Shown one piece after another: positions 45,405 to 57,675 of a DNA stretch of 64,000 nt. Below the pieces are notes generated by a model. That model did not search any database and was not told the DNA's origin. It worked only from the letters and a program-made list of their open reading frames with translations. This DNA comes from Nitrospirota bacterium (lineage in GTDB: Bacteria; Nitrospirota; Nitrospiria; Nitrospirales; Nitrospiraceae). The position numbers and the translations under genes are program-made. Location: the NCBI GenBank assembly GCA_004296885.1, contig SCVN01000016.1, positions 62,001 through 126,000 of the forward strand. Direction: 5' to 3'. Each line of letters starts with the position of its first letter. Within the stretch, counting starts at the first letter, position 1.

Positions 45405-45672
45405 CCCGAGCTTGCTTGGCGGGAGCCTCTTCTCATTTGAGAGGCGATCCGCGAGATACCTCAAGTGTTCTTCGTGTGAGCCGCCGCGTTTGATCAAATC
45501 GCGGCGGATAGTTACTTTGCCTCAAGTAGGCTTAGATTTCATCCCTCGCTTGCGTGTGCCGGTGCCCTCAAGATTCAAAGGGCGACGGAGCAACACCTTA
45601 GGCGGAAACATCTTCTTGCCTCCGCCTGGTGCTTTCCAGCCTGGGTGGTTGGCGAGAGAGTCTCGAGGGAAC

Positions 45673-56771: not shown

Positions 56772-56797
56772 GGGCTGCCTCATGACGCGTTTCCTTT

Positions 56798-56883
56798 CTT
56801 TCCCTTCCCCTTCCCTCAAGGGAAAGACCGGAAGCGCGTCTCCTGCCTCTTTCCTCGCCCTTCCCCCCCCGGGGCGAGGAAAG
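56798..56883. repeat. Two stem-loops in a polypyrimidine stretch
   Basis: CTTTCCCTT (56798-56806) pairs with AAGGGAAAG (56818-56826). CTTTCCTCGCCC (56849-56860) pairs with GGGCGAGGAAAG ending at 56883, with a run of eight C in its loop. Confidence 0.7.
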
Positions 56884-57017
56884 AGCGTCGGGAGGTCTGG
56901 CGCGAAGGGAGCGACGCGGGACGAAGGGTGGTCTGCACGCGGCTACATCGAGGAGGAGTCATCGAAGGGTTTTCTCGGCGCGCGTCAACTCGATACGACA
57001 TAACAGAGCGCGCCGTT

Positions 57018-57200
57018 CAACTGAGGTTGGTAGGGCGGCTCACGCAAGCGCGTTCGAGATTTCACTGGTGGAGCAAGACCTCTCCGCCGCGATGTGATCG
57101 AACGCGGCGGTTCAACCGAAGGTTGATGGAGATTGCACTGGAGGCAAAAACCTCTCCGCTCACAGGTGATCGAAGTGAGCGGCTCACGCAAGCGCGGTAT
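57018..57200 (+). repeat. Tandem hairpin repeat with compensatory changes
   Basis: Two copies of a unit of about 72 bp. Each has GAGATT, CACTGG, ACCTCTCCGC and an 8-bp stem closed by an 11-base loop ending GTGATCGAA (stems 57084-57091/57103-57110 and 57156-57163/57175-57182). The lower stem bases are shared; the upper four pairs differ but still pair. Flanking units (TTCAAC..GGTTG and CTCACGCAAGCGCG) alternate at both ends. It leads into the DUF420 gene. Confidence 0.75.
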
Positions 57201-57210
57201 GGAGGGCGGC

Positions 57211-57675
57211 ATGGACGGCAAAACGATCCTCTGGTACGGCGTGCTCTTCAGCATCACGGCGGCCTACCTGGTCGCCTTGGCCGGCGTGCGATCCGCCCGG
57301 CAGCACGACGTGGGCTACCATTCGCGTTTGATGGTCCGCGCGTGCACGATCGTCGGCATCTGGCTCGTGGCCTACGTCATGAAGCAACTGCTCTTCGGGC
57401 GCGAGCGGTTCGGAGGGACGGACGGCGAATACTGGCGGCTCTATGTGCCGGTCTTCTCCGTGCACATGGCCCTGGCGGTCTCCACGATCGCGGTGGGAGC
57501 CTACAACTTGTATACCGGCCTGACGCGGCTGCGGTACGGGAGCGTCGGCGCGATGGCGGCCGGCATGTCGGTGCATCGCCGCTTGGGCAAGTTCCTGGTC
57601 TGGAGCTTCACGGGCACGATGCTGACCGCCTATCTGGTCTATCTGCTGTTGTTTGTCTGGTATCCGGCGAGCTGA
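57211..57675 (+). CDS. DUF420-family membrane protein
   Basis: 154 residues with four hydrophobic helices. YHSRLMVRACTIVGIWLVAY, LYVPVFSVHMALAVSTIAV and VHRRLGKFLVWSFTGTMLTA match DUF420, whose histidine-bearing members are associated with cytochrome c oxidase or respiration genes. GGAGGG precedes the ATG at 57211. Its place within a chemotaxis cluster is unusual. Confidence 0.8.
   Translation: MDGKTILWYGVLFSITAAYLVALAGVRSARQHDVGYHSRLMVRACTIVGIWLVAYVMKQLLFGRERFGGTDGEYWRLYVPVFSVHMALAVSTIAVGAYNLYTGLTRLRYGSVGAMAAGMSVHRRLGKFLVWSFTGTMLTAYLVYLLLFVWYPAS

Follow-up and report, generated by a model that had tools for sequence, protein, structure and literature searches.

The window analysed here, a 64,000-nt stretch of Nitrospirota DNA, carries an array of hairpins between a cheW-like gene and a DUF420 gene. 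Read on the minus strand, the array (56965-57201) consists of three double-hairpin units and an orphan hairpin. Genomes are labelled G, with G000 the own genome (3.26 Mb) and all others Nitrospirales relatives; sequence loci are labelled L, and reading of sequence covered the stretches around matches. The features located in the window are as follows.

57200-57213, plus strand: gene junction, with the GGAGG ribosome-binding site at 57201-57205 and the DUF420 ATG at 57211-57213 (sequence; recurs at other genes)
57137-57201, minus strand: unit 1, 11-nt-loop class, adjoining the DUF420 gene (cmsearch with model R1, 79.5 bits, E 1.4e-18)
57185-57196, minus strand: small hairpin of unit 1, CACGC-AA-GCGCG (sequence; first helix of model R1)
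57156-57182, minus strand: large hairpin of unit 1, CCGCTCAC / AGGTGATCGAA / GTGAGCGG in plus-strand letters (sequence, stem scan)
57064-57130, minus strand: unit 2, 11-nt-loop class (cmsearch with model R1, 75.9 bits, E 1.2e-17)
57113-57125, minus strand: small hairpin of unit 2, CAACC-GAA-GGTTG (sequence)
57084-57110, minus strand: large hairpin of unit 2, CCGCCGCG / ATGTGATCGAA / CGCGGCGG (sequence, stem scan)
57041-57052, minus strand: orphan small hairpin, CACGC-AA-GCGCG, between units 2 and 3 (sequence)
56965-57034, minus strand: unit 3, long-loop class (cmsearch with model R2, 46.6 bits, E 3e-13; R2 was built from other loci only, unit 3 being excluded)
45461-45619, plus strand: second array, an 11-nt-loop unit at 45461-45527 (R1, 68 bits) and a long-loop unit at 45540-45599 (R2, 29.1 bits)

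The 5' end of unit 1, which reads CATACC on the minus strand and GGTATG on the plus, touches the ribosome-binding site of the DUF420 gene. The large hairpins of units 1 and 2, spaced 72 bp apart, agree exactly with their description in a first-pass annotation: their outer four stem pairs are common to both, and the inner four differ and are nevertheless paired. Their loops on the plus strand read A[TG]GTGATCGAA. What it called half-unit hairpins are present at all three positions and are the small first hairpins of units. The array is larger than was then described: unit 3, with the stem CGGCGCGC/GCGCGCCG at 56976-56983/57008-57015, a 24-nt loop and a small hairpin at 57018-57029, falls largely outside the stretch then covered. 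Positions 57035-57052 are an 18-nt exact copy of 57179-57196, and the orphan hairpin they contain is followed by no large hairpin; it is the leftover of a truncated unit. On either strand the array folds better than shuffled sequences do (z = -3.3 and -3.4). An open frame through the 72-bp repeat was considered as peptide-coding and rejected, since unit length and context vary among copies. The CT-rich interval at 56784-56885, after the cheW-like gene, contains a pair of inverted repeats, both strong (23 nt at 87% and 14 nt at 100%); they have no relation to the hairpin units and are possibly a terminator.

Each unit spans about 70-80 bp and forms two hairpins. Its order, on the minus strand in the window, is CATACC, a 5-bp hairpin of the CAACCttcGGTTG type, GAR, an 8-bp hairpin and a tail. 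The loop of the 8-bp hairpin falls into two classes, either the 11-nt TTCGATCANNT or about 25 nt, and units of the 11-nt-loop class have the tail A(T/G)AG(T/G)TACTTTGCCTCCAGT; the end of a unit is approximately CTCCAGT. The 11-nt loop (window 57092-57102 and 57164-57174, minus strand) begins like a tRNA T-loop (TTCRANNC), a start that is absent from the long-loop class. Taken with the position of units after the CCA of tRNA genes (below), this resemblance at the level of sequence may be tRNA mimicry or coincidence.

A covariance model, R1, was built from 24 units. In the alignment of these units the 8-bp stem was 99% paired, with changes on both sides at 6 of its 8 pairs, the small stem was 91.5% paired and a weak third helix 60%; over 69 distinct rows the 8-bp stem was 97.2% paired, in the units of relatives 98.6%, and the long-loop class behaved the same way (99%), alignments A3 and A4 having been fitted to the model and so biased towards it, and A2 and A5 not fitted. 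When partner columns were slid by 1-3 positions, pairing over the whole structure fell from 87-89% to 32-42%. The retention of pairing through sequence change, noticed at first in two hairpins, thus extends by covariance model and alignments to dozens of copies in many genomes, and copies with broken stems, which had been named in advance as the finding that would tell against it, were looked for; the stems hold. The stems vary mostly among copies located at different sites. An orthologous unit either retains its stem, with a single change to a G-U pair in the G001 zapA array, or has been exchanged for a different unit, as at tRNA-Ala and tRNA-Leu(GAG) of G003. The covariation therefore reflects long-term upkeep of the palindrome among paralogous copies. 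The large stem holds 14 G-U pairs against 880 Watson-Crick pairs, a scarcity to be expected if the palindrome is maintained as DNA, and its 14 G-U pairs compare with 10 A-C mismatches, without clear strand bias. With both hairpins pooled, G-U pairs number 42 against 18 A-C, a mild bias to the read strand that is weakened by common ancestry; the excess leaves room for one strand to act as RNA or as single-stranded DNA.

Blast with the region found 43 places in the own genome. The covariance-model search of this genome and its relatives, proposed in the first-pass annotation, gave 68 matches at E<=1 in the own genome, 61 of them at E<0.01, and 0-90 copies per genome across the Nitrospirales, in a patchy distribution without simple phylogenetic pattern: 46, 16 and 48 copies in relatives of the same genus, and 0, 2, 14, 66, 74, 90 and other numbers in other genera of the family. 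The genome is GC-rich, and palindromes of this kind could in principle be compositional accidents of its intergenic DNA; a specific loop, specific flanks, specific spacing and 61 recurrences of the unit are far beyond chance, and we give that explanation practically no weight. Named genomes were also scanned with a pattern that set no letters for the five inner pairs of the stem. Among the matches listed, units paired at 8 of 8 positions came from entries titled Nitrospira or Nitrospirae/Nitrospirota, the one exception being a well-paired unit on an Aquabacterium MAG contig (L160) that is probably mis-binned. Matches in other phyla were scattered and had 2-6 of 8 pairs; with their stems unpaired they were set aside as chance, as were five matches on viral contigs, each with 3-6 of 8. 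Over all loci together the distribution has two peaks, one of at least 102 units with all 8 pairs formed and the other a chance group at about 4 of 8. Arrays are tandem with units in one orientation, and a Nitrospirae MAG (L191) carries five units, four of them at an 81-bp period. Directly upstream of the second window array (L018 1400-1640) lies an apparent tRNA 3' half, GGTTCGAATCCC...GGGGCCACCA, for which neither ARAGORN nor Rfam gave a gene call.

Units are placed with precision at two kinds of site. At 12 of the 43 tRNA genes of the own genome a unit begins at the tRNA's own 3' CCA, on the same strand; in 10 of the 12 the offset is identical, the unit starting on the CA of CCA, two of these ten resting on weak matches of 18 and 19.6 bits. 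At tRNA-Leu(TAG) the unit is shifted by one base beyond this point, and at tRNA-Phe the first unit, a weak one, occupies the same place. The same offset was found at 11 further tRNA 3' ends in relatives. Nearly all other non-nested arrays have the opposite orientation and run up to a protein gene, where they terminate on its ribosome-binding site or its start codon; for at least 11 arrays away from tRNA genes the terminus is a GGAGG or a start codon. By gene names assigned by eye from protein starts, the junction GGTATG|GAGG..ATG stands before the DUF420, LmbE-like, ZapA, 2-oxoacid oxidoreductase gamma-like, L25-like, epimerase-like and other genes, while at hemW the junction is GGTATGG with the start codon inside it. 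Common to tRNA and gene sites, on the strand of the unit, is (A/T)CC or another CC directly before ATACC. A unit that comes after (A/T)CC will thus hit tRNA 3' CCA ends or, inversely oriented, ribosome-binding sites and start codons. In two genomes (L002 1398 and L150 465) a unit in antisense adjoins tRNA-Ser(TGA) at its 5' end; these sites use CCTCC, the complement of the GGAGG with which that tRNA starts, and so the same motif as ribosome-binding sites. So exact a fit to the ends of tRNAs might alternatively reflect selection for a function.

One genome per species was compared, so presence or absence of a unit is a between-species difference at 80-90% identity, and it is from such differences that we infer movement. 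In three congeneric species, orthologous sites either carry arrays that vary by entire units or carry no array. The tRNA-Ala array is A-B-C in G000, A-B in G001 and A'-C in G003; the array at hemW consists of a single unit in G003, of two units in G000 and of more in G001, and G014 has no unit there. The tRNA-Lys and tRNA-Leu(TAG) genes of G003 are bare. In G014 (L079) the DUF420 orthologue (82% identity), preceded by the same cheW-like gene, has no array. In G003 a gene upstream of the hemW array has GGAGGATGACATG intact and no unit. One G003 site lacks nothing but the unit, its ribosome-binding site and its start codon being intact, and so sets the boundary at GGTAT|GG. No base-perfect empty site was obtained for the 3' end of a unit, and no target duplication was seen at the compared sites.

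These comparisons bear on the readings offered in the first-pass annotation, which were a regulatory RNA, a leader element and a mobile palindromic repeat. The last of these is the best fit. An RNA or leader tied to DUF420 is not supported: the G014 orthologue lacks the hairpins, and units also precede unrelated genes and follow tRNA genes. Taken together, the bare DUF420 and hemW sites of G014 and the two tRNA genes of G003 without an array leave no conserved DUF420 leader, and a gene-specific leader RNA or riboswitch was rejected on the same grounds. A broader functional role, with units as 3' trailers guiding tRNA 3' maturation or blocking exonucleases and as 5' leaders tuning translation, would account for the exact placement at CCA, ribosome-binding sites and start codons, for stems preserved in all lineages and for the slight one-strand excess of G-U over A-C. 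However, most tRNA genes of the genome do without a unit, as do orthologous tRNAs in G003 and the DUF420 gene in G014; the gene-side unit is the reverse complement of the tRNA-side unit, so that one structure could serve both only as a generic hairpin; G-U pairs are few; and Rfam gave no match (at gathering scores only tRNAs in the window, and at E<=1 nothing relevant at four array loci). We consider such a role unlikely. Two further structures were rejected: an intrinsic terminator, as no T run follows the stem (ATAGTTACTTTG or AGAGGTACTTTG; TTCAAGCGAAG on the other strand), and an integron attC site, as inspection of alignment A2 showed no conserved RYYYAAC / GTTRRRY boxes.

The hairpins of the window array, three units and one remnant, are best read, with a probability of roughly 0.7, as members of a mobile palindromic repeat family of the Nitrospirales that is REP-like and non-autonomous and inserts preferentially after (A/T)CC on one strand. 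The family is dispersed, has a one-sided junction motif, turns over unit by unit, maintains its stems, and has neither coding capacity nor a constant neighbour gene, no recurrent protein gene being found beside the copies. Copies would spread as DNA, probably via a single-stranded hairpin, with an enzyme that would cut one strand after CC and leave no target duplication. Enzymes of the IS200/IS605 type cut one strand and produce no target duplication. Arrays would grow and shrink through recombination between units, as the hemW and tRNA arrays and the five-unit array of L191 suggest, and any effect on the DUF420 mRNA would be a by-product of insertion within its 5' leader.

A special case of a mobile repeat would be an ordinary REP/BIME moved by a RAYT (Y1 HUH) enzyme since lost from this genome. 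Units that are extragenic, palindromic, dispersed and tandem agree with it, as do the one-sided junction motif without target duplication and the PF01797 genes of some copy-bearing relatives (G003, G014, G015 and G022). Yet no PF01797 (Y1/RAYT) gene was found in the copy-rich G000, G001 and G007, whereas G032, G035 and G038 have several and no copies, and across 41 genomes PF01797 did not correlate with copy number. Unlike described REPs, the units also carry no GTAG/CGTC tag at the foot of the palindrome (PMC3733652); in alignment A2 the feet were GAACCG/GAGCCG and CGGATAG/CGGAGAG. This special case is rather improbable, if somewhat less so than a functional RNA. That a mobile hairpin family is directed to tRNA 3' CCA and, with the motif reversed, to ribosome-binding sites and start codons by an enzyme outside the known Y1 transposases, supplying hairpin trailers and leaders genus-wide, is a tentative extension that we put forward as a possibility only.

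Units might also travel as passengers, one to an element, inside a MITE-like sequence bounded by the terminal inverted repeats CAGGATGTTGAAAAAG...CTTTTTCAACATCCTG. About 15 of the own copies lie inside such elements, nearly all with the junction GAGGAGGTA|CATACC, and the element at L107:3188-3517 is missing from the orthologous site in G001. However, the tRNA and gene arrays, the window array among them, lack such ends, and the junction shared by the nested copies indicates that a unit inserted once into an ancestor of the element; as an account of the family this is very improbable. The element is about 330 bp long and occurs with its single unit and constant junction at L107 3188-3517 and at L008, L009, L011, L013, L015, L017 and L020. 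A MITE of a DDE transposon was rejected for the unit itself, the ends of which (CATACC and CTCCAGT) are not inverted and show no target-site duplication at the compared sites.

Compared with known repeats, the mobile palindromic family proposed here works like a REP/BIME-type repeat, and it lacks the foot tag and the RAYT by which described REP families are defined. It is a short, dispersed extragenic palindrome in many copies (61 matches, stems 97-99% paired), and shares with the RAYT-associated (IS200/IS605-like) REP/BIME the high copy number, tandem or mosaic arrays, patchy occurrence across species and suspected non-autonomous mobility via single-stranded hairpins. It differs in having two hairpins per unit of about 70-80 bp, loops of 11 or about 25 nt and an upstream junction at tRNA CCA or ribosome-binding sites, and in lacking both the foot tag and, in this genome, a PF01797 gene. 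BOX, ERIC and RUP-type elements are likewise small, modular, intergenic bacterial repeats with RNA-folding potential, and are set apart, by their descriptions, in sequence and modules. The CGTC-tagged REPs are, like the present family, palindromic repeats with no dedicated transposase known, and differ in their tag; their loops are mostly 4-5 bp (PMC3733652). Repetitive hairpin-forming and double-hairpin elements of sponge and fungal mitochondria are mobile-looking and intergenic, with a few complementary stem substitutions between copies (PMC2800124); the likeness is one of description, these elements being organellar and having no stated link to tRNA 3' CCA. RepRanger, in the part of that source available, is a generic palindrome finder that gives counts for Nitrospira moscoviensis and names no family. 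The present family looks like an undescribed relative of the known 'selfish' palindromic repeats and not like a dedicated regulatory RNA.

Nitrospira are central to nitrification. No such repeat family of Nitrospira was found described in the literature and databases searched. With hairpins set directly against the ends of tRNAs and against ribosome-binding sites, the family may influence the maturation of tRNAs and the expression of ordinary genes such as zapA, hemW and ribosomal L25, and with no evident transposase it makes the spread of REP-like repeats testable in a new lineage. At L085 1460-1725 (G000:C21) a tRNA-like 3' fragment, GCGGGTTCAAATCCCG...CGCTCCA, is followed directly by a three-unit array with no intact tRNA called, and could be the remnant of an attachment site. 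At L003 1300-1505 a short Asn-Pro repeat protein, MDPKNPFNPINSVDPGNP..., apparently starts at the ATG with which a unit ends.
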